A DNA stretch of 64,000 nucleotides from Burkholderiales bacterium (lineage in GTDB: Bacteria; Pseudomonadota; Gammaproteobacteria; Burkholderiales; SG8-41). Shown piece after piece: positions 10,016-33,245 of this stretch. The stretch's first letter is position 1. Each line of letters starts with the position of its first letter. The translations under genes and the position numbers were made by a program. The stretch is taken from positions 133,819 through 197,818 of the forward strand of contig JALHRQ010000006.1 in NCBI GenBank assembly GCA_022841375.1, written 5' to 3'. The notes below the pieces were generated by a model that was not told the DNA's origin, ran no database searches, and saw only the letters and a program-made list of their open reading frames with translations.

Positions 10016-10022
10016 TACTGCT

Positions 10023-14471: not shown

Positions 14472-14508
14472 CTTGTTAACACTGTGCATTTAGTCACTGC
14501 GACAAATC

Positions 14509-14566
14509 CCGGGTATGGGAATCCCCTGTTCCCATTTTCGAGAAAAACGGCGCCGGGAATACCCGG
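14509..14566. promoter_or_regulatory. Candidate enhancer (upstream activating) sites for the tetraheme promoter
   Basis: Two related palindromic sites, ATGGGAATCCCCTG at 14515-14528 and CCGGGAATACCCGG at 14553-14566, lie inside an 8-base inverted repeat (CCGGGTAT with ATACCCGG). They sit about 130-180 bases before the predicted sigma-54 start, the usual distance for an NtrC-family activator. A near-identical site is at 36335-36348. Confidence 0.5.
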
Positions 14567-14667
14567 CTGATGGTCCCAACGGCATTCTGTGTCCGGGCAA
14601 TGTGACTTTTTGCCTATATATCGGTTCATTAGACGGTGCGAGCACAGGATGACGGCGATATTGGGTT

Positions 14668-14684
14668 CTGGCACGAATGCTGCT
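14668..14684 (+). promoter_or_regulatory. Sigma-54-type promoter for the tetraheme cytochrome
   Basis: CTGGCACGAATGCTGCT matches the YTGGCACGRNNNTTGCW consensus except for one base in the -12 element. Predicted start is near 14695, giving a leader of about 80 bases. The remainder of the 304-base gap before the gene holds the enhancer candidates and no gene. Confidence 0.72.
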
Positions 14685-14775
14685 CTTTAAGGGTTGTGAC
14701 GCACGGCTTTTTTAGGAGCGAGACGGTTTCGCCGGCTGTTGCGAGTATTTAACCCTTGAAAGGGGGTATTCCATC

Positions 14776-15633: not shown

Positions 15634-15658
15634 GATCGGGAGCCCGGCACTAGGTAGG

Positions 15659-15691
15659 CGGGTCGGGCGAGCAGCCCGACCCGTTTTTTTT
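15659..15691 (+). terminator. Strong intrinsic terminator after the tetraheme cytochrome
   Basis: A perfect 10-base stem (CGGGTCGGGC with GCCCGACCCG), 5-base loop and eight T. It separates the cytochrome from the downstream operon, which starts 25 bases later without a visible promoter of its own. Confidence 0.9.
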
Positions 15692-15715
15692 GACGATCCG
15701 CGAACGGAAATTATC

Positions 15716-16753
15716 ATGAGACGTACTCTAAGTTGTGCTGGCTGCGCCGTATTGTTTGCGGCCATGCCGTGGGTCGCCTTGGCTGCGGCGCCAGTGGAAT
15801 CCTCCGTGCAAAAGCCGGCGCATCCTGCGGCGGCAGTATTCGCCAGTGTGAACAACTCGGTAATCACCGTGCAGGAATATGAAACGGCAGTTGCGCAGGC
15901 CGCCCGCCAGAAGTTCTACCACCGCACTCCCGACGGCGACAAGCTGGCTGAACTACAGCGCGAAGTGGCGGATAACCTGATTAATCATCGGCTGTTGATC
16001 GCGGAAAGCAAGCGCCGCGGTGTCGTACCCGATCAACAGAGCGTGCAGAAGCAGATTGCCGTATACGATGAGCGGTACAAAGATAGTCCACAGTGGAAAA
16101 GCAATCGCGCGCAAATGCTGCCGCCGTTGAAAGCGGAGCTTGAGCTGCGCAGTTCACTTGAAAGTCTCGAAAAGCAGGTTCGCGGGACGGCTGACCCCAC
16201 CGAACAACGGCTGCGCGCCTACTATGACAGTCATCACGATCTTTTCACGCAACCGGAGCAGGTGCAACTGTCGATAATACTCCTCAAGGTGGACCCGTCG
16301 GCGCCGCGCCTGACATGGGACAAGGCGCGCGAGGAAGCGCAGACCATACTGAAACGACTGAAGGGCGGAATGGCGTTCGCGCAACTGGCACAACTGCATT
16401 CTGCCGATGGGAGCGCGCAGAAGGGCGGTGACATGGGATACGTACATCGCGGCGTACTGCCCCCTGCCGCGCAGGAGGCCATTGACAAGCTGCAAGCGGG
16501 CATGGTCACGGAAGCTGTGACCTTGCTCGAAGGCGTGGCGCTTTTCCGGCTGGAAGATCGCAAGCCGGCCCAATTGCGCAACTTCGCAGACGTGCGTGTG
16601 CGTGCGGCCGACCTGTGGCGGCGTGAGCAGAGCGAGGCCAAGTGGAAGGACTTCCTCGCATCCTTGCGCAAGGCGGCGGTCATCAAAATCGATACGACGC
16701 GCTACCCGGGTCTGGGCGCGGTGCAAGCGGCTCAACTTGATGCAAGGCGATAA
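15716..16753 (+). CDS. Periplasmic peptidyl-prolyl isomerase, PpiC/SurA type
   Basis: The 345-residue product has a signal peptide (cleavage near residue 24), a SurA-N-like helical chaperone segment with the VNNSVITVQEYE entry (about 40-170), a parvulin domain at about 180-285 (LSIILLKV, FAQLAQLHSAD, GGDMGYV, PPAAQEAI) and a C-terminal helical segment. It should act as a foldase or chaperone in the periplasm. The next gene is an outer-membrane barrel and the one before is a secreted cytochrome. A dedicated chaperone for one of these is the simplest role. From memory, PPIases also accompany extracellular cytochrome genes in Geobacter; I have not checked this. Confidence 0.88.
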   Translation: MRRTLSCAGCAVLFAAMPWVALAAAPVESSVQKPAHPAAAVFASVNNSVITVQEYETAVAQAARQKFYHRTPDGDKLAELQREVADNLINHRLLIAESKRRGVVPDQQSVQKQIAVYDERYKDSPQWKSNRAQMLPPLKAELELRSSLESLEKQVRGTADPTEQRLRAYYDSHHDLFTQPEQVQLSIILLKVDPSAPRLTWDKAREEAQTILKRLKGGMAFAQLAQLHSADGSAQKGGDMGYVHRGVLPPAAQEAIDKLQAGMVTEAVTLLEGVALFRLEDRKPAQLRNFADVRVRAADLWRREQSEAKWKDFLASLRKAAVIKIDTTRYPGLGAVQAAQLDARR

Positions 16754-16792
16754 TTTATTGTCTATCAATTGTTGCTGCGTGGAGCCCAGCGC

Positions 16793-18679
16793 GTGTACCG
16801 AAGACAAGTCGAATGGGCATGCGCATTTGGCTTTTTATGTCTATTGCGTGCCATGTGCAGTTATGCGGCAGAACCGGAGGTTGCGGCATCAACCGCGGTC
16901 GCCGCGCAACCTGCAGCCTCGTCAGTGGGCGACGATATTGCTTCAATCGCCAGTTTTATCGATTGGCGGCTGGCACCCATCCGCTGGAGCGGAGCGTTCG
17001 GTACCGGCTTGCGGCTAAGCGGCGGCACCGATCAAGCGCGAAGATTTCAGGACGTGGAGACCGCGAACATACAGGGACGCAGCTACATTTGGCAGCCGTG
17101 GTTCGCGCAGTTTTCCGCAGGACTCGGATTGGTAACCTCACTTGATCGCGTCAGCAGCCGTGCGGGGGATGCCAACGGTGCAACGGCAGCCAGCTCCAGG
17201 AATACATCCACTACCCACACTGGTAATCTGGGACTAAATCTGCTCCCGGTCAGCCGCTTTCCGTTTCAATTCACCTACGACATCTCGGACAGTCGTGCCA
17301 GTGGAGAGCTCACAGGAAACGATTTTCAGCGACGCCACCTCGGTCTGCGCCAGAACTACCGCCCGCTTACGGGTAACACCAATTATGTGGTGGGTTACGA
17401 CCGTAACACCCTCAATTCGGCATCGTTCGGCGCCGACACCGTGAGCGCGCTGAATGGTGGTGTTACCCACAGTTGGAATACCCAAAATGTCGATGTTAAC
17501 GCTAGTCGCACCCGCAACACGCGCAGCAACACCGGTGAGAGTTCGCTGATCAGCCGGCTTAACGCGCGGCATGGCTACCGCCCGGATGGTACGTTGTCGC
17601 TGGATACGCAGGCGAGTTACAGCGGGAGCGATCTGCATCTGTTGAGTTCCGGGCTTGCTGCCGATATACGTTCGAGATTCCTGCAACTCAACTCGGTGGG
17701 GACCTGGCGACCCGAGGAAGATCATCCGCTTTACGTGGTGGGCAGCGCACGCCTGTTCCAGAACTCGTTTTCCAGCGGTAACTCAAATTCCGATTCAACT
17801 TCACTCGGCGGCAATATTGCAGCCAACTACCGCTGGACGCCACAAACAACGATTTATGGCACCTTCGGGCTTACCCAAGCAGCAAACGACATCGGAAGTA
17901 CACTTCTCACCAGTCAGGCGACGGGAATTAACTATACGCCGGATCCGATCAATTTTGGCGCGTACAGATACTCATGGTATGCCGGCGGCAATGTGGCCAA
18001 TCAGACCGGCGGTAGCGAAGGCGCCCGCAATAACGTCGGCGGCAACATCGGCCAAAACCTCACGCGCGGAATTCAGCTCAAAAGCTCGACCACACTGAGT
18101 CTCAGCGCCGGCCAGTCCTATTCTTTGAATCGCGACAGCGTCGCGTCGCTTGCACAGACACTCTCGCATACGGCCACTGTTGCGCTGCGCACTTCACCAA
18201 CGCTGAACTCGAACGCTTCTGTAAGTGCGACAGCAGCTGACTCGCGTACCTACGGAGTGAATGAAAATACCTTTCAAATCATTAACATACAGACGAACGG
18301 TCAAATCCAGTTCGGGCGCTATTCGTATGGATCGGCGAGCCTCACCCTTCAGGGCACACGCCAATACACGCTGGCTTCGCCTGCCAGTGATTTCATTTTC
18401 AATACCAGCGGCAACCTCACCTATAGCCACACCCGCGCATTCGATATACCGCTGTTGCGCTACACATTGATTTACAGCGGCAATCAAAATCAATTTCAGT
18501 CGCGCCTGCTGGGAGACATCAATGCGCCGCGCGAGCAGATCAGCCATTCGCTCGAACAACGGCTCGATTACAACATTGGTCGTATTGAGCTGCGCTTGAG
18601 CGCCCGTATCGCGCACATCGATGACCGCGATGACTGGCTGATTTTTTTCACCCTTAATCGTCGAATCGGCGAGTATTGA
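16793..18679 (+). CDS. Outer-membrane beta-barrel protein, candidate cytochrome conduit or export pore
   Basis: GTG 16793 with a GGAG eight bases before it gives a 628-residue protein with a signal peptide ending near AMCSYA. The remainder is rich in Asn, Ser, Thr and Gly, with alternating amphipathic strands (FTYDISDS, TNYVVGYDRN, YSYGSASLTLQG, RIELRLSARIAHI) ending in Tyr, as is usual for barrels. There is no Cys in the mature part, so no heme. The number of strands is large; I did not count them reliably. I recognise no named family (it is not clearly MtrB/PioB). Flanked by a PPIase and periplasmic triheme cytochromes, it could house an electron conduit or let the filament subunit out. Confidence 0.82.
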   Translation: MYRRQVEWACAFGFLCLLRAMCSYAAEPEVAASTAVAAQPAASSVGDDIASIASFIDWRLAPIRWSGAFGTGLRLSGGTDQARRFQDVETANIQGRSYIWQPWFAQFSAGLGLVTSLDRVSSRAGDANGATAASSRNTSTTHTGNLGLNLLPVSRFPFQFTYDISDSRASGELTGNDFQRRHLGLRQNYRPLTGNTNYVVGYDRNTLNSASFGADTVSALNGGVTHSWNTQNVDVNASRTRNTRSNTGESSLISRLNARHGYRPDGTLSLDTQASYSGSDLHLLSSGLAADIRSRFLQLNSVGTWRPEEDHPLYVVGSARLFQNSFSSGNSNSDSTSLGGNIAANYRWTPQTTIYGTFGLTQAANDIGSTLLTSQATGINYTPDPINFGAYRYSWYAGGNVANQTGGSEGARNNVGGNIGQNLTRGIQLKSSTTLSLSAGQSYSLNRDSVASLAQTLSHTATVALRTSPTLNSNASVSATAADSRTYGVNENTFQIINIQTNGQIQFGRYSYGSASLTLQGTRQYTLASPASDFIFNTSGNLTYSHTRAFDIPLLRYTLIYSGNQNQFQSRLLGDINAPREQISHSLEQRLDYNIGRIELRLSARIAHIDDRDDWLIFFTLNRRIGEY

Positions 18680-18716
18680 TTACATGCCGCGAATGAATCT
18701 TGCTTGGAGCAACTGC

Positions 18717-19166
18717 ATGAGAACAGAATTTCGTAAATTTTACCGGCCGGGCGTGCTGTGGGCGCTTGCGCTGCTGGCGGCCATTGCCGGCACAATGATC
18801 ACGACATCGGAGGCGCAGGCGGAATATGGCGATGTGGTGATCAATAACCATTCCGACGCTGCGGGTATGCGTCCGGTCGTGTTTCCCCATTGGTTTCATC
18901 GCGTGCGTTTCCGCTGCAAGGTATGCCACGCCGATCTCGGCTTTAAGTTCAAGGCCGGTGGCAACGATATCAATATGGTGAAGATTATCGATGGCCAGTT
19001 TTGCGGCTCCTGTCACAACGGCAAGGTTGCGTGGGCGGTTGACAGTTGCGATTTGTGTCATTCCGGCAAACCCGGCACCCCGACGCAGGTGCACGAGAGC
19101 ACGATCAATCTGTTGGTGACACCGGGTGCCTTGACACCGGCTCCTGCAGCGGCCGGAAAGAGGTGA
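18717..19166 (+). CDS. Triheme cytochrome c7-type protein
   Basis: ATG 18717, with TTGGAG eight bases upstream, gives a 149-residue protein; another in-frame ATG lies at 18684. A signal peptide ends at EAQA, then EYGDVV. Three CXXCH motifs (CKVCH, CGSCH, CDLCH) and the PHWFHR motif give the c7 (triheme, bis-His) layout. It is a paralogue of the product at 23082-23504, with which it shares EYGDVV, FPHWFHRVRFRCKVCH and the motif spacing. It is probably a small periplasmic carrier feeding the outer-membrane complex. It follows the barrel gene closely and ends two bases before the next start. Confidence 0.9.
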   Translation: MRTEFRKFYRPGVLWALALLAAIAGTMITTSEAQAEYGDVVINNHSDAAGMRPVVFPHWFHRVRFRCKVCHADLGFKFKAGGNDINMVKIIDGQFCGSCHNGKVAWAVDSCDLCHSGKPGTPTQVHESTINLLVTPGALTPAPAAAGKR

Positions 19167-19168
19167 CT

Positions 19169-20713
19169 ATGCGCCGTACTGCATTCATTATCGGCCTGCT
19201 GCTCGGGCTGCTGAGCAGCGCTCATGCACAGACACAGGAACTGTCTGGCGGACGTTCAATATATGACGTGCAATGCTTGCCATGTCATGGGAATGGTCTT
19301 TTGGGAGCGCCGCGCACGGGCGATGCAGCGGCTTGGGCGCCACGCATTGCAGCCGGTGTTAACGGGCTTTACGCCAATGCGATCAAAGGCAAGGGCGGCA
19401 TGCCGCCGCGTGGCGGAAACGCCGTGCTGACCGATACGCAAGTAATCGCTGCGGTCAATCACATGCTCAATTTATCCGCTGCCAAACCTGCCGCTGATGT
19501 TGCCAAAACCACTGTGGCGCCAGTTGACGCCGCTAGCGGCCGCAAGGTGTACCAGGCATCCTGCGCGGCGTGTCACGCCACCGGTGCTGCTGGCGCGCCA
19601 AAGCTCGGCGACAGTGTGGCATGGACCCAGCGATTGAACGCGGGCGCCGGTGCGATGCATACCAGCGCACTAAAGGGCAAAGGCGCGATGCCGCCGAAGG
19701 GTGGCAATGCCTCGCTCGCCGATGCCGACGTTCGTGCCGCAGTGGATTTCATGCTGGCGCAGGCGCGCGGGGGGGCAGCCACCCCCGCCGCGGTGGCTCC
19801 CGCAACAGCACCCGCAACGCCGTCCGCGCCACTCTCCGCAGATGGGGGTAAGGGACGCATGGTGTATCAGGCTTCGTGTGCGGCATGCCACAGCACGGGA
19901 GTGGCAGGAGCGCCGAAAATCGGAGACAGTGCTGCGTGGACGCCGCGATTGAAAGCGGGCGCCGGGGCAATGCAAGTCAGCGCACTCAAGGGCAAAGGTG
20001 CAATGCCGCCGAAGGGCGGCAATGCCTCGCTTGCCGATGCCGACGTTCGCGCCGCGGTGGATTACATAATCTCGCAAATGCGCACCGGCACGGCGGGGGC
20101 GGATGCGGGGACATCAGTGCCAGCCACGGCGGTGGCGAGCGTCACCCAGTCAATACCGCCTGCTCCGGTGGTGGCGCCAGGCCCGGCGGCCCAGTCCTCG
20201 AATGATCCGAATGCCTTTAACCGGCTGATGACGCCACCTTCTAAACGCAACGCCGCGCCGGCCGAAGACGGCATACACGACCCGGCAAGTCCCGGCACCA
20301 TGCTGTTACAGGCGCCGCTGGCATCATTTACAACGCTGCCGCGCAACAATACCGGCAACTACGTGGACTGGGGTGCGGCGCTGAGCAAGAAACAGATACT
20401 GCCGCGCTGGGACGTGCGCGACCCCAAAGCCGACGCCACAGTGATGGATTTGAACATCGTGCGTGAAGTCAAAGGATCAATGCCCGACGTGGTATTTCCG
20501 CACAAGCAACATACGGAGTGGCTGGATTGTTCCAATTGCCATCCAGCGATATTTATTCCGCAAAAGGGCGCCAACCAGATTAGCATGGCGGCGATCATGC
20601 TCGGCCAGAAATGCGGTGTGTGCCACGGCAAGGTGGCGTTTCCGGTGTCGGAATGCAGATTGTGTCATTCGCGCTCGAAGAACGCGCAGCCCACCGGGGA
20701 GGTCAAACGATGA
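19169..20713 (+). CDS. Hexaheme fusion cytochrome: three c5-type domains plus a c7-type domain
   Basis: AAAGAGG before ATG 19169 sets the start two bases after the previous stop; the 514-residue product has a signal peptide ending at AHA. Three class I c5-type domains carry CLPCH (about 36), CAACH (131) and CAACH (236), each followed by GAP..GD, W..R and a GKG.MPP(K/R)GGN Met-ligand loop. A Pro/Ala/Thr linker leads to a C-terminal domain with CSNCH, CGVCH and CRLCH (about 453, 481, 496), the c7 type. That domain shares GIHDP and FPH.QHT.WLDC.NCH with the protein at 22516-23085. Mixed His/Met and bis-His hemes suggest a bridge over a wide potential range (inference). The stop overlaps the next ATG as ATGA. 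Confidence 0.9.
   Translation: MRRTAFIIGLLLGLLSSAHAQTQELSGGRSIYDVQCLPCHGNGLLGAPRTGDAAAWAPRIAAGVNGLYANAIKGKGGMPPRGGNAVLTDTQVIAAVNHMLNLSAAKPAADVAKTTVAPVDAASGRKVYQASCAACHATGAAGAPKLGDSVAWTQRLNAGAGAMHTSALKGKGAMPPKGGNASLADADVRAAVDFMLAQARGGAATPAAVAPATAPATPSAPLSADGGKGRMVYQASCAACHSTGVAGAPKIGDSAAWTPRLKAGAGAMQVSALKGKGAMPPKGGNASLADADVRAAVDYIISQMRTGTAGADAGTSVPATAVASVTQSIPPAPVVAPGPAAQSSNDPNAFNRLMTPPSKRNAAPAEDGIHDPASPGTMLLQAPLASFTTLPRNNTGNYVDWGAALSKKQILPRWDVRDPKADATVMDLNIVREVKGSMPDVVFPHKQHTEWLDCSNCHPAIFIPQKGANQISMAAIMLGQKCGVCHGKVAFPVSECRLCHSRSKNAQPTGEVKR
19538..20066 (+). repeat. Tandem duplication of a c5 domain inside the hexaheme gene
   Basis: The second and third c5 domains (about 19538-19753 and 19850-20066) are nearly identical in DNA, with mostly silent third-base changes, over the MPPKGGNASLADADVRAAVD segment. 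The first domain (about 19249-19467) is clearly more diverged. This points to a recent internal duplication. Confidence 0.8.
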
Positions 20714-21648
20714 TATTGCGAGCGTTGTGGACGGGAGTGATGATAGGGATATGCACTGCCGCGTCTATTCCTTCAATGGCTGCCGAGTTGCCTGCAACCG
20801 GCTCTACAGTTGCGATTACACGCCAATTGGTCGAACAGAAAGAAGCGCTGGTAAAGCGGCTGCTTGCGGACTCGCCGGCCGTGCGCCGCGTGGAGGCAAG
20901 TGGCAACGCCGAGGCCAGAAAACACCTGGTGTCTGCCCAAGAAGCCTATCGCAAGGCGCTGAGCGCACTAAAGGCCAACGATTTGCAAGCGGCAGACAAG
21001 CAACTCAATAACGCGACCTTGTTGATTGGTAAGGCGCGCCAGTTAGCACCAGATCCCGCTACGCGCAATGTCGAGCAGCATCTCCGGTATGCGCAAATGT
21101 TGGAGTCGGTGGAGTCGCTCAAGGTAACTTATCACAGGCATTTGCAGCGCATGCGCAGACAGCCGGCGGACGCGATAACGAGCGACGCGCAGCTTGTGGA
21201 AATATCACGACGGATCGATAGCGCGAAAAGCCAGGCCAATGCCAAACAGTTTACGGAGGCTAACCGGACCCTGAGCGGTGCGGAGAATACGCTGATGGTG
21301 AACATCAGCCGCATGTTGGGGGCGCGTACGGTCGAGTACACCCTGCGTTTCGAAACCCAGGAGGAGGAGTACGGCTTTGAGCTCGATCGCAATCGCAGTT
21401 ACCTTGACCTGATACCGGTAGCAATCGCGGAGTTCAAACCGGGCAGCGAAGCTATACGGCAAGTGAATTACTTTGTAGATACCAATCGCCAGATGCGTGA
21501 ACTGGCACAGCAGCATACAGCAACAAAAAATTACAAAGAAGCGTTGGCGGCTGTGCGGGGTGGTACCGGATATTTGCAAAGCGCGCTGGAGGCAGTCGGG
21601 TTGAAAGTGCCGCCTGACACTAAGCCGGCTGCAGCGAGGCGGCCATAA
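20710..21648 (+). CDS. Secreted helical protein of unknown family, copy 1
   Basis: The 312-residue protein has a signal peptide ending near SMAA and no Cys in the mature part, so no heme. The body is predicted almost wholly helical, with long charged segments (VEQKEALVKRLLADSPAVRRVEASG, EAYRKALSALKANDLQAADKQL). A conserved element, EEEYGFELDRN, lies near residue 220. It is a paralogue of the next gene: both share E-R/K-SSG or SPAVR, the EEEY.(F/Y)E(L/I)DRN element and a C-terminal A..L..G....P. I do not recognise a family. It starts on the ATGA overlap and ends on a TAATG overlap, so it is tightly coupled to its neighbours. A scaffold or adaptor for the periplasmic cytochromes is speculation. 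Confidence 0.85.
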   Translation: MILRALWTGVMIGICTAASIPSMAAELPATGSTVAITRQLVEQKEALVKRLLADSPAVRRVEASGNAEARKHLVSAQEAYRKALSALKANDLQAADKQLNNATLLIGKARQLAPDPATRNVEQHLRYAQMLESVESLKVTYHRHLQRMRRQPADAITSDAQLVEISRRIDSAKSQANAKQFTEANRTLSGAENTLMVNISRMLGARTVEYTLRFETQEEEYGFELDRNRSYLDLIPVAIAEFKPGSEAIRQVNYFVDTNRQMRELAQQHTATKNYKEALAAVRGGTGYLQSALEAVGLKVPPDTKPAAARRP

Positions 21649-22511
21649 TGCCAATTCGCTGGCCTGGCGTGTTAATGGCCTGTGTGTTGGCGCTGCCGGT
21701 GTTCGCGCAGCAGGGGGCGGACAATTCGGCCGTGGATCACTTGCGGCTCGAACAGCGCTTTTCCTCAGTGGAGACATTGATCGAACGCTCGTCCGGTGCG
21801 CGGCAGATCGAATCCAGCGGCGTAACGGAAGCACGCGACAAACGCGAAAAGGCGCGGGAAATTTACCGGCAGGCGCGCGCGGCCTACGATAGTGGTCAAT
21901 TTGCGCGCGCGTCGCAGTTGCTGCCGCAGGCGAGCATGCAGATGTTCGAAGCGGTGCGGCTGGCCGCGCCGGAACAGATCACGGCGCCGAGGGCGCGCAG
22001 CGATTTTGAGGCGCGGCTGGAAAGTGTGAACTCGTTGCACGCCGCGTACCGCCGCGTCGCCGCCGAAAAAAATGGCGTATCGGACGCCGCCCAAACCAGC
22101 CGCGACATTGAGCGTCGGATCAGCGAAGCGAGGCGGCTTGCCGATGAAGGCCACGTCGACGCCGGGCGCGCCGAGCTTGATCGCGCTTATCTCATAACCA
22201 AGGCGGCAGTGAGTTCACTGCGCGGCGGCGACACACTGGTCCGTGCGCTTGAATTCGGTAGCAAGGAGGAGGAGTACCGCTATGAGATCGACCGCAACGA
22301 CACGCACCAGATGCTGATCAAGGTGCTGCTCGACGGCAAGCCGGAAACATCGCAGTCGCGCGGTTTCATCGATCGTGCCGAGCAACTGCGCAGGCAGGCC
22401 GAAGGTGCGGCCGCGCGCAACGATCATCTGGGCGCGATACAGCTTCTGGAACAATCCACGCGTGAACTGGTGCGTGCGATCCGCGGCGCTGGCGTTTACA
22501 TCCCGGGTTGA
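21648..22511 (+). CDS. Secreted helical protein of unknown family, copy 2
   Basis: The 287-residue protein has a signal peptide ending at VFAQ and no heme motif or Cys in the mature part. It is helical throughout, with TPR-like spacing of Ala and Tyr (EKAREIYRQARAAYDSGQFARASQLL) but no clear TPR consensus. KEEEYRYEIDRN near residue 205 matches copy 1. The one-base TAATG overlap with copy 1 suggests the two are made in equal amounts and may form a heterodimer (inference). Function unknown. Confidence 0.85.
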   Translation: MPIRWPGVLMACVLALPVFAQQGADNSAVDHLRLEQRFSSVETLIERSSGARQIESSGVTEARDKREKAREIYRQARAAYDSGQFARASQLLPQASMQMFEAVRLAAPEQITAPRARSDFEARLESVNSLHAAYRRVAAEKNGVSDAAQTSRDIERRISEARRLADEGHVDAGRAELDRAYLITKAAVSSLRGGDTLVRALEFGSKEEEYRYEIDRNDTHQMLIKVLLDGKPETSQSRGFIDRAEQLRRQAEGAAARNDHLGAIQLLEQSTRELVRAIRGAGVYIPG

Positions 22512-22515
22512 GCGC

Positions 22516-23085
22516 ATGCGCCAAGCCAGACACAGGATGGTATCCACGATCTCGCGGCTGCCGGTACTGATCCTGCTGCTGGTGAGCATGGCAGCGTGGG
22601 CGCAAACCGCACGGCAGTGGTTGCCGCTCGCCAAGGACGGCATTCACGATCCGCGCAATCCAGCATTGCGGCTGCTTCAGGAGCCGGCCGCGGCGCTGTC
22701 CCGGTTGCCAGCGGATGGTGCTGGCAATCAAGTGAACTGGGTGCATGCGCTGGAGCGCGGTGTCATTAACCCGCGTACCAATATTCTTCCCGAAACGCAG
22801 GTGATGGTGATCGATGTCGATATCTATCTTAACCTGCGTGGTGGTACCCCCATTGTGCGATTTCCGCATCGTGCGCACACCATGTGGCTGGATTGCACGA
22901 ACTGCCATCAACAGTTGTTTGCATCAAAAGCGGGCGCCAACAAGTTGAGCATGGAGGCGATGCTGAAAGGCGAGCAGTGCGGCGTGTGTCACGGCGCGGT
23001 TGCATTTCCGCTTACGGAGTGCGCTCGCTGCCACAACACGCCGCGCAACCAGCCATTGCCGGTGGGTGCGATACGCGGATCATGA
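22516..23085 (+). CDS. Triheme c7-type cytochrome related to the hexaheme C-terminal domain
   Basis: ATG 22516 gives a 189-residue protein with a signal peptide ending near AWAQ; an alternative ATG lies seven codons on. CTNCH, CGVCH and CARCH, together with FPHRAHT.WLDC, place it in the c7 group. The segment KDGIHDPRNPALRLLQEPAAAL and the following residues match the C-terminal third of the hexaheme fusion, so the two share an ancestor. It should be a soluble periplasmic electron carrier. The stop overlaps the next start as ATGA. Confidence 0.9.
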   Translation: MRQARHRMVSTISRLPVLILLLVSMAAWAQTARQWLPLAKDGIHDPRNPALRLLQEPAAALSRLPADGAGNQVNWVHALERGVINPRTNILPETQVMVIDVDIYLNLRGGTPIVRFPHRAHTMWLDCTNCHQQLFASKAGANKLSMEAMLKGEQCGVCHGAVAFPLTECARCHNTPRNQPLPVGAIRGS

Positions 23086-23504
23086 CAAGCGGCCTGTTCA
23101 AACGCCGCACGCTGATCGGGATGGGCAACGGCGTAAAACGCAGCGTGGTGTTGGCGCTGGTCGGATTGACGCTGCTGGCAGCGCCGGCGGAGGCGGAATA
23201 TGGTGACGTGGTGTTGAACAAACTTTCAGAGAAGAACGGGGTGCGTCCTGTGGTGTTTCCGCACTGGTTTCACCGCGTGCGCTTTCGCTGCAAGGTTTGC
23301 CACAGTGAACTCGGGTTCAAGATGCGCGCCGGTGCGAATCATGTGACCATGGCCGATATTACCAACGGAAAATTTTGCGGCATGTGCCACAACGGTCAGA
23401 TTGCGTGGGGCGCCAATCAATGCGATTTGTGTCATAGTGGAAAGCGCGGCCTGAAAAGCGGCATTTACGGCGGGCATCAAACCAGCGGACCTGGGCAATG
23501 GTAA
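23082..23504 (+). CDS. Triheme c7-type cytochrome, paralogue of the product at 18717
   Basis: The 140-residue protein has a signal peptide ending at AEA, then EYGDVVLN. CKVCH, CGMCH and CDLCH with FPHWFHRVRFR give the same c7 layout as the protein encoded 4.3 kb upstream; the two are highly similar over the whole mature length. The start follows the ATGA overlap with the preceding c7 gene, and the 3-prime end overlaps the NHL gene by seven bases. The pair probably arose by duplication of part of this operon. Confidence 0.9.
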   Translation: MTSGLFKRRTLIGMGNGVKRSVVLALVGLTLLAAPAEAEYGDVVLNKLSEKNGVRPVVFPHWFHRVRFRCKVCHSELGFKMRAGANHVTMADITNGKFCGMCHNGQIAWGANQCDLCHSGKRGLKSGIYGGHQTSGPGQW

Positions 23505-24526
23505 CGAAAGCAGTCCGTTTTCATTGTGTTCTTCATCTCTCCCGTCTACCGGGCAATGCACTGCGGGTCGCGACAGCGGCGTTTGCGCTGCTGCTCGCGG
23601 GCTGTGAGACGGCACCAAGCGCAGCGCCCGCAACGCCTGCGGGCAACGTGGTGCGTGCGCGATCCGCGCTGTCGCTGATGCCATGGCTGTCGCTCACCGG
23701 AGCGCGGCTTGCTTTAACCACCGATCACACCGGCATGCCATCGCCGAACGCCGGCCCGCTTGCCTTCATGCGCTTCATCCGTCCGCTTTCACTGGCTGCA
23801 CGCAATGGTGATCTGGTGATACTCGATTCGGGCTCCAACACGGCTTATCGTTATGACCCTGCACTCAATCTGATGAGCGCATTGCGCGGCGTGCCGACGC
23901 AACCCGGAACGCAGCTGGCACTGGGCGCAGACCATTCGCTCTATGCCATCGACCAGCCGGGCGCTCGCGTGCTACGTGTGGGAAGAAATGGTCAGATGCT
24001 GGCGAGCTACAGCGACCCCCTCAACATGCCACGTCCGGTTGATATTGCGGTCGACGATGCGCGCGGTCTGGTAATTGTTGCAGACGGCACTTACAATCAT
24101 CTGATTGCATTTCATGCGCTAGGCGGTGCCTCCTATGTGATTGCCTTGCGCGGCGGCGAACTATCCGTGGGGGCGGTGGGTGCAATCGCGCTGGGGCCGG
24201 ATGCGATTTATGTGACTGATCCGCTGTGCAGCTGCATAGCGCGCGTAGCCTTCACCGGCGGCGTGCTGAGCAATTTTGGCCGCGGTGCCGTCGTCCAGCC
24301 GGGATCGCTCGCCGTGGATCGTTTCCGGCGGGTGTTCGTCATTGATCAGTTCGAGCGCGCTCTTAAAGTATTCGACCGTGGACAATTGATTGACACCATA
24401 CCCGCACGTCGCTTCAACATGCAGCAGATCGACGATATATGGATCGATGAGGGTGTGCTTTATGTTGCCGACGGCCTGTCTGCGCGGGTTGAAGCGCTGC
24501 GTATCGCCGCACCGACAGGCCCCTAG
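23498..24526 (+). CDS. Divergent NHL-like propeller lipoprotein
   Basis: The 342-residue protein has a lipobox LLAGC with Cys36 after a hydrophobic segment. Propeller blades are weaker than in the other NHL proteins here but visible (GDLVILDSGSNTAYRYD, RPVDIAVDDARGLVIVADGTYN, QPGSLAVDRFRRVFVIDQFERALKVFD). An unusual CSC lies near residue 250. Lipid anchoring to the outer membrane is likely because Cys+1 is Glu rather than Asp (inference). It overlaps its neighbours, so it belongs to the operon. Confidence 0.82.
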   Translation: MVTKAVRFHCVLHLSRLPGNALRVATAAFALLLAGCETAPSAAPATPAGNVVRARSALSLMPWLSLTGARLALTTDHTGMPSPNAGPLAFMRFIRPLSLAARNGDLVILDSGSNTAYRYDPALNLMSALRGVPTQPGTQLALGADHSLYAIDQPGARVLRVGRNGQMLASYSDPLNMPRPVDIAVDDARGLVIVADGTYNHLIAFHALGGASYVIALRGGELSVGAVGAIALGPDAIYVTDPLCSCIARVAFTGGVLSNFGRGAVVQPGSLAVDRFRRVFVIDQFERALKVFDRGQLIDTIPARRFNMQQIDDIWIDEGVLYVADGLSARVEALRIAAPTGP

Positions 24527-24527
24527 C

Positions 24528-25622
24528 ATGCACCCGCACCGGCTGCTCATCTTGATTGCGGTGTTGATGCTCAGCGCTTGTGCGGGTGATGGAGTTCCGC
24601 GGGTGTTGCATTTCGGAATGTCCGACGCGCCGGAGGGTAAACGTGTACTGTGGCCGATGGCACCCGACGTGCCGCGCTATTTATACGCCGGCGAACTCGT
24701 CGGAGAAGCAAATTTTCGGAAGACCGAACGCGCGCATGAGGGCGTGGGTGGTTTTCTGCGCTGGATCGCAGGAATCATTGCCGGCGAGCAGGCACCGGTG
24801 GTGTTGCAGCGACCGCAGAGCGGTGCAGTGGATGAAAGTGGCCGTATCTACGTCACTGATGTAAGCCGACAGGCACTGTTTGTGTTTGATCAAAATGCGG
24901 GTGATCTGCTGGTGTGGGACAAAGCTGAGGGGCTGGCGAATTTTGTCACGCCGGTTGCAGTGACACCGGGTCCGGCTGGACAGATTTTGGTCAGCGATGC
25001 AGAACTGGGTATGGTCGCGCGACTGGACAGCAAGGGTAATCCACAACGCGGTTTCGGCAAAGGCATACTCAAACGTCCGACAGGAATTGCCTACGACGCC
25101 AAGCGGGGTCTGATCTACGTAGCGGACACGCGCGCCCATGACATTAAGGTCTTCAATAGTGACGGCGTACACGTTAAATCAATTGGCCGGCCTGGGGAAG
25201 GCGATGGGGAATTTAATGCGCCGACACATCTCGCATTCGCGCACGATGAACTCTATGTAATTGACACCTTGAACAACCGCGTGCAGGTCTTCAGCAACGG
25301 TGGCGCTGGAGACTATAAAATGCGGCTGAAGTTCGGCGCGCGCGGGCTCTACATCGGCAATCTGGTGCGTCCCAAGGGCGTGGCGGTCGACAGCGAAGGC
25401 AACATCTACGTCGTCGAATCCTATTACGACCGCCTGCTGGTATTCGACAAGTATGGCAATTTTTTGATGCCGATCGGCGGCACCGGGCCGGAGACCGGGC
25501 GCTTTTACTTGCCGGCGGGCGTATGGATTGATAGCCGTAACCGTGTGTTTGTCGCCGACATGTTTAATGGCCGCGTGGCGCTATTTCAGTTTTTGGGCGG
25601 AGGCGCGGATGGCGAACCATAA
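24528..25622 (+). CDS. NHL-repeat propeller lipoprotein
   Basis: The 364-residue protein has a lipobox MLSAC with Cys18. NHL blades are plain (RPQSGAVDESGRIYVTDVSRQALFVFD, RPTGIAYDAKRGLIYVADTRAHDIKVF, RPKGVAVDSEGNIYVVESYYDRLLVFD, YLPAGVWIDSRNRVFVADMFNGRVALF) and should close a six-bladed ring. The sequence PDVPRYLYAGEL resembles the entry segment of the propellers at 10023 and 13353. It starts one base after the previous stop and overlaps the 11-heme gene. A surface or periplasmic docking protein for that cytochrome is the likely role (inference). Confidence 0.88.
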   Translation: MHPHRLLILIAVLMLSACAGDGVPRVLHFGMSDAPEGKRVLWPMAPDVPRYLYAGELVGEANFRKTERAHEGVGGFLRWIAGIIAGEQAPVVLQRPQSGAVDESGRIYVTDVSRQALFVFDQNAGDLLVWDKAEGLANFVTPVAVTPGPAGQILVSDAELGMVARLDSKGNPQRGFGKGILKRPTGIAYDAKRGLIYVADTRAHDIKVFNSDGVHVKSIGRPGEGDGEFNAPTHLAFAHDELYVIDTLNNRVQVFSNGGAGDYKMRLKFGARGLYIGNLVRPKGVAVDSEGNIYVVESYYDRLLVFDKYGNFLMPIGGTGPETGRFYLPAGVWIDSRNRVFVADMFNGRVALFQFLGGGADGEP

Positions 25623-28194
25623 CTTTACGGATGCCATGGCACTGACGCTTCTAACCACAGTGTTCGTTATGCTCATGACCACGTCTGCGTATACCGCAGC
25701 CGCGGTCGCCGATGTGCGCAGTACGCGTCACAATCTTTCGGTGACAGGTCCCGGCACCGTCAAGGCCACTACCGAGACGCAGGTATGCGTATTCTGTCAT
25801 ACGCCGCACGCCGCGACGCCGGGTGTGACGCCATTGTGGAACCGCAAACTCTCGAATGCCACGTATACCACCTACACTTCGTCGTCGCTTGATGCCATAG
25901 AAATTCAGGGCACGCTTAACCAACCTGGTGGCAGTTCGAAGTTGTGCCTGTCGTGTCACGATGGAACGCTCGCCATTGGCAACGTCAATGTGCTGAACGG
26001 TCAAGGGTCGGCGACGCTGCAGGGCACAGTTCCGGTGCTGATGAGCGGCGCCGGCACGGGGGGCGTGATACCTGATGGTGCTGGAGCAACTACCGGCTTC
26101 ACGCGCAACCTCGGTGTAAATCTTACTAACGATCATCCGATATCGCTCACCTACAGCAATACGCTCGCAGCGCGCGACGGCGAGCTGCGTAACGTCGATG
26201 CCAGCCAAAAATGGCCGCCCGGCGATGGTAGCCTGATCGGTGTCAGGAGTTCGGGCTACCGGCCCAAGTTACCGCTTGAGCCCACCGGTGCTTCCGGTCA
26301 GGGTCAAATACAGTGTGGCACCTGTCACGATCCACATCTGCACGAGCCTGACACCACCAAGGGCAATCAAAAGTTCTTGCGTCAGAACCGTTTTCAGCAG
26401 GCCACGCCGACCAATACGCACGATAGCGTGAACGACATCATTTGCGTGGCATGCCACGATAAGAATCAGGGCAGCGGCACGTGGGCATACTCGGCGCACG
26501 CAAATCCGCTGGTGGCAATACAGACCTATAATGCCACTGCCGCCACGCAGCGCGAATTTCCCGCCAATCTGCCGGTTTGGAAAGCGTCATGTCTCAATTG
26601 CCACGACACGCATACAGTGCAGGGTGCGCGCCGGCTGCTGCGCGAAGGCACCGACAGCGTGACCACGCCGAAGAGCGGCGGCAATGCGGCGCTGGAACAG
26701 ACGTGTTACCAGTGCCACACCGACGCTGCGTCCAGTGTGATTTCGCCCTCGACCACGGTGCCCAACATTCGCAGTGATTTTCAGCTGGCGCGGCGCATGC
26801 CGATCACCTCTACTGATCAGGCGGCGGGCAGCGAAGCACATGATATCGGCGGCAATTTCACCGATACCGGTCTTGCCGACTGCTCCACGCCGACCAACAA
26901 ATGCGGCAAGGATTTCCTTGAATCGCGGGCCAGACTCGGAGCCGGCAACCTGTCCAATCGCCACGCCGAATGCACCGACTGCCATAACCCCCACCGCGTG
27001 GTGAAATTCCGCTTGTTTCTCGGCAATCCGCCGGGCAGCCTTGCCGGTGCGCCCGACGCCGCCGGCACGCATAGGCATACCGATACCACGGGTTATACGC
27101 ATACCAATCTCATCTCCGGCGTGCTGCGCGGCACGTGGGGTGTGGAGCCGGTGTACGGCTCGGCTTCATTCCAGAATCTGCCGACCAGCTACCTCGTCAA
27201 GCGTGGTGATCCGGGTTCCAGTGTGGATACATCGGTGACCGCGCCGTATGTGACGCGCGAGTACCAGATTTGCCTGAAGTGCCATTCTGATTATGGTTAC
27301 AGCGACAACAATGTTTATCCCATCGGCAACCGGCCCAATCTCGGTTATCCGGGCGGCACGCCGGCGGGCACGAATAACCTTCAGCAGTACACCAATCAGG
27401 CCAAGGAATTTCAGGCGCCGGTCACGCATCGCGGCGCGGCGACCACCAATGACTCCGGCGCGGCGGTGGCGTATGGCACGAACAATCAGCGCTCATGGCA
27501 TCCGGTAATGGACGCGACCGGGCGCACCGGCACCATACGCGGCAACGGCACCAACATCAGCGCGCGCTGGCGCCTGCCGTGGAGCAACGCGGTGGGCACG
27601 CAAACCATGTATTGCAGCGATTGTCATGGTTCGAACGTGACCTCGGCCACCTCGGTGATACCGGACGGCGGCGAGAACGGCAATTCGTGGGGCCCGCACG
27701 GCTCCGGCAACAATTTCATACTCAAGGGATTGTGGAACACCTCCACCGGCACCGGCCAGCAGGCGAATGGCTTGTGCTTCAAGTGCCACGACTATGCGAG
27801 CTACGCCACCAGTTCCGGCAACCGCACCGGGTTTTACGACCTGGGTGGCCGCGGCGATCTGCATTCGTACCATGCCAACAGGATTGGGCGCATGCGCTGC
27901 AACTGGTGCCATGTCGCGGTACCCCACGGCTGGAAGAACAAGGCGCTGCTCGTCAATCTGAATGATGTCGGACCCGAAGTCGGACTTGCTGCCGGTACGC
28001 AGGTGCGCAACAACACCACGGCGGCTTACAACAACGGCCCGTACTACATGAACGCGGTGCTGAAAATCCGCAATTTCCGTCCGAGTGGACAGTGGCAGCA
28101 AGCCGATTGCGGCTCCAGCGGCGCGCCCGGCAACGGCCAATCGGGGCGCAACTGGATGCGCGACAGCAATGAGAACTGCGCCAATCCGCCATGA
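25609..28194 (+). CDS. Eleven-heme c-type cytochrome with an N-terminal filament-type domain
   Basis: GGAGG before ATG 25609 sets the start inside the end of the NHL gene; the 861-residue product has a signal peptide ending near AYTA. Eleven CXXCH motifs are present: CVFCH, CLSCH, CGTCH, CVACH, CLNCH, CYQCH, CTDCH, CLKCH, CSDCH, CFKCH, CNWCH. The first 250 residues repeat the motif series of the tetraheme protein (RHN, CVFCHTPHA, PLWN, CLSCHDG, NDHPIS, CGTCHDPH). The remaining two thirds is a different multiheme region with long Asn/Thr/Gly-rich, low-heme stretches typical of secreted or surface cytochromes. It could be a terminal reductase, a cap or an anchor for the filament (inference). 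Confidence 0.92.
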   Translation: MANHNFTDAMALTLLTTVFVMLMTTSAYTAAAVADVRSTRHNLSVTGPGTVKATTETQVCVFCHTPHAATPGVTPLWNRKLSNATYTTYTSSSLDAIEIQGTLNQPGGSSKLCLSCHDGTLAIGNVNVLNGQGSATLQGTVPVLMSGAGTGGVIPDGAGATTGFTRNLGVNLTNDHPISLTYSNTLAARDGELRNVDASQKWPPGDGSLIGVRSSGYRPKLPLEPTGASGQGQIQCGTCHDPHLHEPDTTKGNQKFLRQNRFQQATPTNTHDSVNDIICVACHDKNQGSGTWAYSAHANPLVAIQTYNATAATQREFPANLPVWKASCLNCHDTHTVQGARRLLREGTDSVTTPKSGGNAALEQTCYQCHTDAASSVISPSTTVPNIRSDFQLARRMPITSTDQAAGSEAHDIGGNFTDTGLADCSTPTNKCGKDFLESRARLGAGNLSNRHAECTDCHNPHRVVKFRLFLGNPPGSLAGAPDAAGTHRHTDTTGYTHTNLISGVLRGTWGVEPVYGSASFQNLPTSYLVKRGDPGSSVDTSVTAPYVTREYQICLKCHSDYGYSDNNVYPIGNRPNLGYPGGTPAGTNNLQQYTNQAKEFQAPVTHRGAATTNDSGAAVAYGTNNQRSWHPVMDATGRTGTIRGNGTNISARWRLPWSNAVGTQTMYCSDCHGSNVTSATSVIPDGGENGNSWGPHGSGNNFILKGLWNTSTGTGQQANGLCFKCHDYASYATSSGNRTGFYDLGGRGDLHSYHANRIGRMRCNWCHVAVPHGWKNKALLVNLNDVGPEVGLAAGTQVRNNTTAAYNNGPYYMNAVLKIRNFRPSGQWQQADCGSSGAPGNGQSGRNWMRDSNENCANPP

Positions 28195-28225
28195 TTAATA
28201 AGTTGTTGTTTTTAATGGATATTAT

Positions 28226-29242
28226 TTGAACACGTCCGCAGCAAACGCGGGTGTCTCCAATACCGGCGGCTGGTACGCGGCGGCATGGCTGCACCGACTC
28301 GCCAGTACGCGGCTGACGCTGCTGTTCATCGTGTTGCTCGCGTGCGGCGTGATCGCCTATGAACCTGCGGCGGGCCGTGGCGCGTGGCTGATCGTTGCAC
28401 CGCTGTCGCTGGGCGCGGCGAACCTTGCTGCGGCAATACTCACCAACGCAGTCATACGTCAGCACACGGCGCTGCTGGTGTTTCATCTAGCATTGCTGGC
28501 CATCGTGCTGCTGGCGGCGGCGGGGCGGCTCACGTATCTCAAGGGGCAGCTTGAACTCGCCGAAGGCGAGGCATTCAGCGGACAACTGATGCAAGTCGAG
28601 CGCGGCCCGTGGCACCGGTCGCAGCTCGAACGTGCGGTGTTCAGCAACGAGGGCTACACCATCCGTTATGAAAAAGGCGTGCGCCGCGCGGATACGCGCA
28701 ATGCCGTGCGCTGGGTGGATGAGAGCGGGCGCGAGCAGCGTGCGGTGATCGGCGATCACACGCCGCTCACGCTCCACGGTTACCGTTTTTACACCAGCTT
28801 CAACAAGGGCTTTGCGCCGGTCTTCATCTGGCAACCTTTCGCCGGTGTACCGCAACGCGGCAGCGTCAACCTGCCGTCGTATCCGATCCATGAATACCGC
28901 CAGGCGCTGGAATGGAATCTGCCCGCAACGCAAACCAGCGTATGGACGATGCTGCAATTCGACGAGGTGCTTCTGGATCCCGACAAACCCTCGCAATTGC
29001 GGTTGCCGTCGCAGCATGCGCTGGTGGTGCGCATCGGCGAGGCGCGGCATGAGCTCGCGCCTGGCGCACGGATTGCCCTGCCGCAAGGCGTGCTGACGTA
29101 TGAGCGTTTGAGTCTGTGGATGGGCTACACCGTGTTCTACGACTGGACCTTGCCGTGGCTCGCCGCGGCATGCGTGCTGGCGGTGGCTGCGCTGGCGTGG
29201 CACTTCCGGCGGAAATTCGCGGCACAGCCCTGGGACGCATGA
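28226..29242 (+). CDS. resB: ResB/Ccs1-family cytochrome c biogenesis protein
   Basis: The 338-residue protein is shorter than most ResB proteins. It has three N-terminal hydrophobic helices (about 28-45, 55-75, 83-100), a periplasmic domain (about 105-300) and one C-terminal helix (about 305-323). The TLHGYRFYTSFNKG and GYTVFYDW segments are ResB-like. With CcsA it forms the system II synthase that moves heme out and attaches it to CXXCH motifs. The start is a TTG at 28226; the nearby ATG is out of frame. It follows the 11-heme gene by 31 bases and precedes ccsA by three, which suggests a dedicated maturation unit. Confidence 0.85.
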   Translation: MNTSAANAGVSNTGGWYAAAWLHRLASTRLTLLFIVLLACGVIAYEPAAGRGAWLIVAPLSLGAANLAAAILTNAVIRQHTALLVFHLALLAIVLLAAAGRLTYLKGQLELAEGEAFSGQLMQVERGPWHRSQLERAVFSNEGYTIRYEKGVRRADTRNAVRWVDESGREQRAVIGDHTPLTLHGYRFYTSFNKGFAPVFIWQPFAGVPQRGSVNLPSYPIHEYRQALEWNLPATQTSVWTMLQFDEVLLDPDKPSQLRLPSQHALVVRIGEARHELAPGARIALPQGVLTYERLSLWMGYTVFYDWTLPWLAAACVLAVAALAWHFRRKFAAQPWDA

Positions 29243-29245
29243 GCG

Positions 29246-30058
29246 ATGACAATTGAATTGCAATTGCTGTGGGGCGCACTGGCGCTGTACACGCTCGCCG
29301 GATCGACCGCGATCGGCGGTACCGTGCTGGCGCGGCGTGTGGAGCGGTCAGTGCTGGCGTTGATCGTGATCGGACTGGTCGTACATGCCGTCTCCATCGG
29401 ACTGCGCTGGGAGCGCGTCGGACACGGCCCGTTCATTACGATGTTCGAAATCCTGTCCAGCAATGTGTGGAGCCTGTTGCTGATTTTTGCGCTGGCTTAC
29501 TGGCGAGTGCCGGCAGTACGGCCAGCTGCTGCCGTGGTGATGCCGATACTGTTCGTAATGATGGGCTGGATGCTGGTGACCAGTCCCGGCGACGGGCATT
29601 ATCCGCCGACGTATCGTACGGTATGGCTCTATATCCATGTGTTTTTCGGTAAGGTGTTTCTGGGTGCAGTGCTGGTAGCGGTGGGCATCGCCGGTCTGAT
29701 ACTGCTGCGCCGCGCGGGCTTCGGCGTGCAGCGTCTGGCACGCCTGCCGGACAGCGCACGTCTGGAAAACCTTGCCTTCCGTTTCATGATCCTCGGCTTT
29801 GTGTTCGAGACGCTGATGCTGATTGCAGGCGCAGTATGGGCGCAGGACGCGTGGGGGCGTTACTGGGCATGGGATCCGCTGGAAACCTGGGCGTTTCTGA
29901 CCTGGCTCACATTGGCGTTTTTTGTGCACGCTCGCGCGACGTTCCGGCTCCAACCCCACCACAGTGCATTGTTCATCATGGGCGTGTTTGTGCTGGCATT
30001 CCTCACATTTTTCGGCGTGCCGTTTGTTTCGACGGCGCCGCACAAGGGAGCGGTATGA
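29246..30058 (+). CDS. ccsA: CcsA/ResC-family heme handling protein
   Basis: The 270-residue protein has about eight transmembrane helices and the hallmark heme-binding WWD motif as WGRYWAWDPLETWAF near residue 205. His residues flank it: HGPF near residue 60, HVFFGK near 133 and FVHAR near 230. It is the membrane heme channel of cytochrome c maturation system II, partner of ResB. Its presence inside a cytochrome operon, next to its own ResB, supports heme loading devoted to the 34 heme sites encoded between 14776 and 28194 (inference). The stop overlaps the next ATG as ATGA. Confidence 0.92.
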   Translation: MTIELQLLWGALALYTLAGSTAIGGTVLARRVERSVLALIVIGLVVHAVSIGLRWERVGHGPFITMFEILSSNVWSLLLIFALAYWRVPAVRPAAAVVMPILFVMMGWMLVTSPGDGHYPPTYRTVWLYIHVFFGKVFLGAVLVAVGIAGLILLRRAGFGVQRLARLPDSARLENLAFRFMILGFVFETLMLIAGAVWAQDAWGRYWAWDPLETWAFLTWLTLAFFVHARATFRLQPHHSALFIMGVFVLAFLTFFGVPFVSTAPHKGAV

Positions 30059-30618
30059 ACCTGCGCCGATGGCGCGATGCGCGCTGGACTGCGTTGACGC
30101 TGACCGCAATCGTTATCGCGGCAGGTGGTGCTTTGGTGGCTGCGTTTTCCGACAGTATGGCGGTGGGCGGTAGTGTAATGCAGGCGCCAATGGCCAAGAA
30201 ATTATCGGTGAATCCTGAAGTCCATCAGCGCTTCCAGCAGGGTGTGATGATGCTGCACGCTAAGCAGCATGAACATGCTTTCACCGCTTTTCATCGCGTA
30301 ATCGAACTTGCGCCCGACATGCCGGAAGCGCACGTCAATATGGGTTTTGCGCTACTCGGCTTGCAGCGCTTCGACACCGCACGGCAGTTTTTCGAGGGCG
30401 CGATTGCGCTGCGCACGAACCAACTCAATGCCTACTACGGCCTGGCGATGGCGTTCGAAGGTTTGCGCGATATGCCGGGTGCGATCGGCGCGATGCGTAC
30501 CTACGCGCACCTTGCCCAACCCGACGATCCGTTTCGACGCAAGGCTGAGGCCGCACTGTGGGAATGGCAGGCTGCGGCGCAACCTGGCGCCCCAACCGCA
30601 GCGCAGAACAGAAAGTAG
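30055..30618 (+). CDS. Membrane-anchored TPR protein
   Basis: The 187-residue protein has an N-terminal helix at about 12-32 that acts as anchor or uncleaved signal, followed by about three tetratricopeptide repeats (HAFTAFHRVIELAPDMPEAHVNMGFALLGLQRFDTARQFFEGAIAL). AGGGAG-like AAGGGAG precedes the ATG. TPR proteins such as CcmI and NrfG hand apocytochromes to heme lyases. Coupling to ccsA suggests the same job here (inference). Last gene of the plus-strand operon. Confidence 0.88.
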   Translation: MNLRRWRDARWTALTLTAIVIAAGGALVAAFSDSMAVGGSVMQAPMAKKLSVNPEVHQRFQQGVMMLHAKQHEHAFTAFHRVIELAPDMPEAHVNMGFALLGLQRFDTARQFFEGAIALRTNQLNAYYGLAMAFEGLRDMPGAIGAMRTYAHLAQPDDPFRRKAEAALWEWQAAAQPGAPTAAQNRK

Positions 30619-30835: not shown

Positions 30836-30866
30836 GAACTGATCGGGCAACATGCCCGATCAGTTC
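30836..30866. terminator. Perfect hairpin between convergent genes
   Basis: A 13-base perfect inverted repeat (GAACTGATCGGGC with GCCCGATCAGTTC, loop AACAT) overlaps the stop codon of the minus-strand sensor gene. No T-run follows on either side, so it may slow rather than end transcription, or protect the mRNA end. The 241-base convergent gap holds only a second short CCCCG/CGGGG hairpin near 30800. Confidence 0.5.
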
Positions 30867-32056: not shown

Positions 32057-32071
32057 GGCCTGTTTCCTATC

Positions 32072-32968: not shown

Positions 32969-33245
32969 CACCAGACCCTGCCAAGGTGGAAATCATCGTT
33001 TTGAACGGTGTCTGTGGATGAGCGTTCCGTTCCCACCATCACCGGAGGATTGACCTTCCGGGAGCAGAGCCCGGCCACCGCTCGCCGTTCATCGACGTTC
33101 GGCATCTGGGGCATGCAGATCTTCCGCGTGCCGGCGCCGCGCTCGTCAAACCTTGAAACGGATGCTCTTCTCATACTGTTACGCGTTTTTATACACTGCC
33201 GCTCGAGCAGTTGCCTTTCGGACACTGAAGTCTCGCGCCGGCGGG

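Follow-up and report, generated by a model that had tools for sequence, protein, structure and literature searches.

An OmcE-related cytochrome in a very probable Uet-type electron-transfer locus of a Burkholderiales bacterium

Gene content of the locus

The window considered here is the whole stretch of 64,000 nucleotides that was analysed from a Burkholderiales bacterium (NCBI GenBank assembly GCA_022841375.1, contig JALHRQ010000006.1, positions 133,819 to 197,818 of the forward strand). Its forward strand carries a cluster of multiheme cytochrome genes (13320-30618) that is very probably an extracellular electron-transfer locus of the Uet (undecaheme electron transfer) type. The locus was named Uet because its gene content and order match those published for Uet. 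The first gene (13320-14471) encodes an NHL propeller (Pfam NHL, E = 1.3e-26), the N-terminus of which appears, by eye, twin-arginine-like and lipobox-like. It is followed by UetA (14776-15633), a tetraheme cytochrome resembling OmcE and a probable extracellular conductor, and by a terminator-like hairpin of 13 pairs with a T-run (15656-15686). UetB (15716-16753) is a peptidylprolyl isomerase of the SurA/PpiC type (Rotamase, 3e-15; SurA_N_3, 1.6e-8), and UetC (16769-18679) is an outer-membrane barrel without a Pfam match. UetD (18684-19166) is a triheme c7 cytochrome (TIGR04257, 8.6e-17) with 68-87% identity in nine relatives. In UetE (19163-20713), three c5-type monoheme domains are fused to a triheme c7 domain, giving six hemes (Cytochrome_CBB3 in three stretches and Cytochrome_C7; TIGR04257, 9.6e-18).

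Two helical proteins occupy the position of UetF (20710-21648 and 21648-22511). They are paralogues (28% identity, E = 4e-22), and both show a weak YfdX match (0.0019 and 4e-4, respectively). Two UetG-like triheme c7 cytochromes follow, G1 (22516-23085; Cytochrome_C7, 4e-12) and G2 (23082-23504; TIGR04257, 1.9e-19). The NHL lipoproteins UetH (23498-24526; NHL, 2.9e-8) and UetI (24528-25622; NHL, 1.3e-26) carry, as judged by eye, the lipoboxes LLAGC and LSAC. UetJ (25609-28194) is the undecaheme cytochrome, with doubled CXXCH motifs and an N-terminal module resembling OmcE and UetA. The series ends with a ResB-like cytochrome c maturation protein of 338 residues (28226-29242; PF05140, 1.7e-9), a CcsA/CcsB-like heme handling protein of 270 residues (29246-30058; PF01578, 1.2e-25) and a TPR protein (30055-30618; TPR_2, 4e-9; TPR_CcmH_CycH, 4e-4). 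The CXXCH motif was counted three times in UetD, G1 and G2, six times in UetE and 11 times in UetJ.

The initial annotation described 15716-30618 as a complete factory for making and wiring a secreted cytochrome, read as one transcript. Every gene it listed lies there, on a single strand and tightly packed, with ATGA and TAATG joints. Its start was placed too late: the conserved unit begins with the NHL gene and UetA, both in place in relatives, and a factory without the OmcE-like UetA directly upstream is incomplete. Moreover, because of the hairpin between UetA and UetB, a single transcript can at best cover the genes from 15716 onward.

Junction lengths were read from the starts judged likely. 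UetB and UetC are separated by 15 nucleotides (if TTG at 16769 is the start) and UetC and UetD by 4, while the UetD/UetE junction is -4 (GTG at 19163) or +2 (ATG at 19169). UetE overlaps the first helical gene by an ATGA (-4, at 20710), and the helical genes overlap by a TAATG (-1). The following junctions are +4 (second helical gene/G1, at 22516), -4 with ATGA (G1/G2, at 23082), -7 (G2/UetH), +1 (UetH/UetI, at 24528), -14 (UetI/UetJ, at 25609), +31 (UetJ/ResB), +3 (ResB/CcsA) and -4 with ATGA (CcsA/TPR, at 30055). A promoter scan was uninformative, as it gave fewer sites than shuffled sequences (4 vs 7.6), and neither an Rfam nor a tRNA scan gave a match in the window.

Kinship with published clusters and conservation of gene order

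The published Uet parts are the undecaheme UetJ, the extracellular tetraheme UetA, the trihemes UetDEG, the peptidylprolyl isomerase UetB, the NHL proteins UetHI and the barrel UetC (PMC10734462). The cluster is cited as uetABCDEFGHIJ and as conserved in Tenderiales (PMC12575090), and UetJ with its porin has been reported in part of the Leptothrix group (PMC13386937). Described carriers are Candidatus (Ca.) Tenderia electrophaga and the Tenderiales, some Gallionella and part of the Leptothrix group. In Tenderia, the trihemes are encoded by Tel_16515, 16520 and 16530, a TPR protein by Tel_16525 and the undecaheme cytochrome by Tel_16545, and the triheme genes are among the most highly expressed on a cathode (PMC5371394). 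From its place between the trihemes, Tel_16525 is taken to be UetF. The present locus likewise joins a tetraheme cytochrome, an isomerase, a barrel, c7 trihemes, two NHL proteins and an undecaheme cytochrome in one cluster, with UetA beside UetB and UetC. The initial annotation did not recognise it as MtrCAB, Pio or a named porin-cytochrome complex; its parts and their order are those of Uet as described in the passages cited above. The operon is real, though its kind has been described before. The ResB, CcsA and TPR tail and the divergent cytochromes of this locus (see below) fall outside the names A to J as given in these passages.

When the named genomes were scanned with the UetD alignment, 503 stretches matched. 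From these, 80 were retained as named loci, many of them cut by contig ends. Ten genes were treated as core (A, B, C, D, E, the second helical gene, G1, G2, I and J). Where a gene had several matches, the UetA match nearest before UetB and the first UetE match after UetD were taken. All 53 named loci with a complete core on one strand keep this order. A lack of conservation in other genomes, which would have refuted the initial annotation, is clearly not what was found. Matches in the 80 loci were obtained for UetD (80, by selection), UetE (79), the barrel (76), G1 and the second helical protein (72 each), G2 (70), UetB and UetI (67 each), UetA (66), the upstream NHL protein (61), UetH (59), ResB and UetJ (58 each), CcsA (52), the first helical protein (40) and the TPR protein (13, many loci ending before it). 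The 126 frames matched by UetE, which include separate small cytochromes, held mostly four CXXCH motifs (64) or one (40), followed by three (19), five (2) and six (1).

Closer to the source genome, the distribution is patchy. Counting its own genome each time, the barrel UetC was found in 3 of 61 relatives and, at the level of the order, in 13 of 399 genomes; it was found in none of 20 genomes of the same genus. In 13 other loci, 12 from the order-level scan and one from a family member, the gene order is the same as far as the contigs reach (13/13), with matches to the first helical protein or UetH missing in some. The locus L020 has no UetD or helical-gene matches and holds two UetJ copies in tandem (3998-9070). 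At the class level, the UetD profile matches 48 of 369 genomes; the weakest matches, with E around 1e-12, may represent c7 proteins other than UetD. PF16694, used as the first probe, was a poor choice, as it matched nothing, controls included. Despite this patchiness, the G+C content of 13320-30618 (59.3%) is close to that of the flanks (58.3% in 1-13000 and 58.9% in 30700-64000), giving no sign of recent foreign origin.

UetD loci also occur in cultured taxa, i.e., Ramlibacter species (including R. lithotrophicus), Dechloromonas hankyongensis, Herbaspirillum sp. ST 5-3 and Ideonella sp. A 288. The core order of this locus is shared by L046 from Rhodocyclales bacterium GT-UBC, which we take to be the same organism as Ca. 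Dechloromonas occultata. An undecaheme cytochrome is cited for Ca. Dechloromonas occultata, a manganese reducer (PMC13264449). No record with Tenderia in its title is among the 80 loci kept.

The fixed gene order also bears on the possibility that the barrel acts chiefly as a channel through which UetA and UetJ are secreted or assembled, the c7 proteins belonging to another pathway. Chaperone, NHL and heme-assembly genes do make up much of the operon. Against this, the c7 genes keep a fixed order between the barrel, helical and NHL genes, which is hard to explain without an electrical role, and such a channel is considered very unlikely.

A conduit of the MtrCAB/MtoAB type, in which a barrel holds an inserted multiheme cytochrome and the undecaheme cytochrome is the equivalent of MtrA or MtrC, must be weighed as well. 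The two share a barrel with multiheme and periplasmic cytochromes. The AlphaFold2 model of UetC (mean predicted local distance difference test score, pLDDT, 86.5; predicted template modelling score 0.71) has 28 strands of at least 10 residues by our own count, MtrB ranks third among the Foldseek matches, and a part of UetJ matches TIGR03508 at 42 bits. That score is far below the 192-bit cut-off, the structural similarity to MtrB is low (template modelling score, TM, 0.31), and TonB-type receptors rank alike with similarly low TM, so that only the barrel class can be read from the model. Unlike MtrCAB/MtoAB, the cluster holds no MtrA-family decaheme over the cut-off. The genome carries a separate Mto-like set on contig 3 (L120 3433-7093), with an MtrA-family decaheme over the cut-off next to a tetraheme NapC-type protein and a barrel-like protein of 678 residues. 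An MtrCAB-type function of the present locus is regarded as unlikely.

UetA, UetJ and a possible filament

UetA is, by homology, a relative of OmcE of Geobacter sulfurreducens. Searched as a single sequence against the PDB, it gave significant matches only to the OmcE filament (7tfs, E = 3.7e-26) and to 9yuq (1.3e-25), a putative multiheme cytochrome of 16 chains; the next match had an E-value of 0.11. The UetA profile likewise retrieved, up to E = 1, only 9yuq (1e-36) and 7tfs (7e-36). Residues 21-285 align with OmcE, the four CXXCH motifs and four other histidines being matched. The histidines of UetA number exactly eight: four belong to CXXCH motifs and the others lie at positions 42, 71, 178 and 258, so that one further histidine is available per heme. 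The latter four are invariant in 13 of 13 sequences. Among the complete UetA frames of the named loci, 59 of 64 have four CXXCH motifs, and all five ligand patterns searched were found in 57 of these 59, the first pattern being changed in the other two. In OmcE, the adjacent subunit supplies a histidine ligand to one heme (PMC9473688). A polymer has been seen for OmcE, whereas UetA is known here from its gene sequence. It is quite possible, though somewhat short of probable, that UetA polymerises too. Literature searches found no paper linking UetA to OmcE, which does not prove that none exists.

UetA-like copies are found elsewhere in these loci. A second, more distant tetraheme paralogue lies about 2 kb before UetA, ahead of the NHL gene, in many loci (L034, L046, L056 and others). 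In the tree, these distant paralogues group together as 28 rows, and the copy of L046 matches 7tfs at 1.9e-13.

The same kinship extends to UetJ. Residues 53-271 of its long open reading frame match 7tfs (E = 2.2e-22), and its N-terminal module shares 33% identity with UetA (E = 3e-29). In a quick tree, the UetJ modules stand on one side of a branch apart from UetA (47 rows; Shimodaira-Hasegawa-like approximate likelihood ratio test, 99); L106, a row with a long branch, is placed with them, but this placement is not strongly supported. Histidines 41, 67, 176 and 243 of the module are invariant in all 34 alignment rows. Eleven CXXCH motifs were counted in 46 of 60 UetJ pieces from the named loci; of the remaining 14, one is cut by a contig end, ten are short frames with a misplaced computed start and three are fragments of one broken copy. 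All four ligand motifs, under a strict pattern, occur in 28 of the 46 complete 11-heme proteins.

The terminator-like signal behind UetA is widespread in the named loci. Perfect stems were found at the UetA/UetB junction in 36 of 65 loci, in stretches of up to 600 bases. With one mismatch allowed, in stretches of up to 250 bases, the signal was present in 46 of 65, compared with a mean of 2.6 and a maximum of 5 in ten rounds of dinucleotide shuffling. This second count is the figure relied on. The fair control is the longer gap between the NHL gene and UetA (10/59 vs 4.4 shuffled). The junctions UetB/UetC (2/64), UetC/UetD (0/69) and UetJ/ResB (1/51) are weaker controls, as gaps of less than 30 bases were scored as being without the signal. 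A terminator at this place suggests that UetA is made in excess of the other parts, with read-through or an undetected promoter feeding the rest of the operon.

The best explanation of the locus is probably a Uet conduit that may bear a filament of the OmcE type. UetJ and UetA would cross the inner membrane by Sec, and their hemes would be attached by the Ccm-type machinery of the cell, by the ResB-CcsA pair of the locus or by both, with UetB aiding in folding. UetC would form a wide outer-membrane barrel, and the c7 proteins D, E and G would carry electrons across the periplasm. UetJ would bridge the barrel and the cell surface, where its OmcE-like N-terminal module could accept UetA subunits, and these would lengthen the wire away from the cell in the manner of OmcE. 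Assembly or docking may be the task of the NHL lipoproteins and of the two helical proteins, and the terminator behind UetA would let UetA exceed the other parts. In its fullest form, put forward tentatively as a possibility, this makes Uet a nanowire machine: UetA, supplied in excess by means of a conserved terminator, would be the filament subunit, and UetJ the base piece that seeds this filament, through its OmcE-like module, at the conduit formed by UetC. An extracellular cytochrome wire of the Geobacter type might thereby be available to many beta- and gammaproteobacteria, including cultured ones.

Alternatively, UetA might be a single extracellular tetraheme cytochrome docked on UetJ and exchanging electrons there, without any filament. 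This can plausibly be the case, although we would not call it probable. UetA appears in the passage on Uet in PMC10734462 as an extracellular tetraheme cytochrome, with no mention of OmcE; sequence homology does not prove polymerisation, and some loci have no UetA in the stretch examined. A docked monomer agrees less well with the complete retention of the four non-CXXCH histidines aligned with OmcE, which would be expected if a subunit contact is kept, and with the signal behind UetA that suggests its excess.

Several observations weigh against a Uet conduit with a possible filament. The name rests on architecture and order, Tenderia having been compared by description and not by sequence. 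Four c7 genes are present here compared with three published trihemes, UetE has three additional c5-type domains with their hemes, and the UetF position is taken by two helical proteins without a TPR match, unlike the TPR gene of Tenderia. Seven Aromatoleum/Azoarcus loci (L062, L064, L067, L069, L070, L075 and L107) have a rearranged gene order, and neither UetA nor UetJ was matched in the stretch examined. Matches to UetA, UetB and UetJ are missing in L054 and those to the barrel, G and J in L097; L106 is rearranged, and L048 and L089 have no barrel match. Foldseek does not single out MtrB for UetC, and the AlphaFold2 model of UetJ is poor (mean pLDDT 58). The terminator-like signal is absent in 19 of 65 loci, and 29 of 33 looser paralogues lack the NDHP pattern.

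For Uet, a proposed route by which electrons are taken up from cathodes and iron, the literature passages give no structure or mechanism. The present analysis adds the link between UetA and OmcE and, inferred from it, a seed-and-filament model. The link turns this route into concrete and testable terms (filament, seed and conduit), and the model bears on how cytochrome wires are anchored to the outer membrane. To our knowledge, the anchoring of OmcE, OmcS and OmcZ wires is an open question.

Heme attachment, electron flow and flanking genes

Of the 45 loci in which this could be tested, 40 have ResB after UetJ, and in 35 of 36 CcsA comes after ResB; ResB was not found after UetJ in L041, L049, L051, L052 and L085. 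The set is conserved and co-directional and would make and wire a secreted multiheme cytochrome with its own ResB and CcsA. To this extent the initial annotation is supported, but not in the unnamed status of the cluster or the omission of UetA. ResB and CcsA form a candidate system II pair for cytochrome c maturation. The cluster ResB matches PF05140 over the cut-off, though only across profile positions 152-263 of 486, and is the single match of this family in its genome. CcsA matches PF01578 over the cut-off and TIGR03144 at 142 bits, under the cut-off of 187.6. PF01578 has four matches in the genome, namely two frames of 677 and 251 residues on contig 7, one on contig 8 and the Uet copy. 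By their length, the two frames on contig 7 look like CcmF and CcmC. Because these additional genes exist and the sole ResB lies in the cluster, maturation of most cytochromes in the cell probably runs through system I, with the ResB-CcsA pair of the locus as an addition carried along with the cluster.

The Tenderia cluster has been proposed to take up electrons from a cathode; for the present locus, both directions of electron flow are possible. Autotrophy by the Calvin-Benson-Bassham cycle was considered for this organism and is not supported, as RuBisCO had no match in its own genome (0/1), compared with matches in 5 of 14 controls.

To the left of the forward genes lies a divergent unit on the reverse strand. 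Two c-type cytochromes with three (12108-13331) and two CXXCH motifs (11429-12163) have homologues in 57 and 55 of the 80 named loci, respectively. They are followed by an NHL protein (10023-11168; Pfam NHL, 7e-23), which adjoins a second UetA/OmcE-like cytochrome with five CXXCH motifs (9053-9964; 35% identity to UetA, E = 3e-47; profile match in its own genome, 4.8e-51). The pentaheme UetA-like copies of L082, L103 and L096 group with this copy in the quick tree (support 100). Furthermore, the cluster is flanked on both sides by reverse-strand genes for signalling proteins with one CXXCH motif in the sensor part, a HAMP-GGDEF protein on the left (6927-8738, CKACH) and a HAMP-PAS protein on the right (30860-32971, CHGCH). 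The latter adjoins an EAL protein in which no CXXCH was counted. The HAMP-GGDEF and HAMP-PAS proteins may use heme for sensing linked to the redox state.

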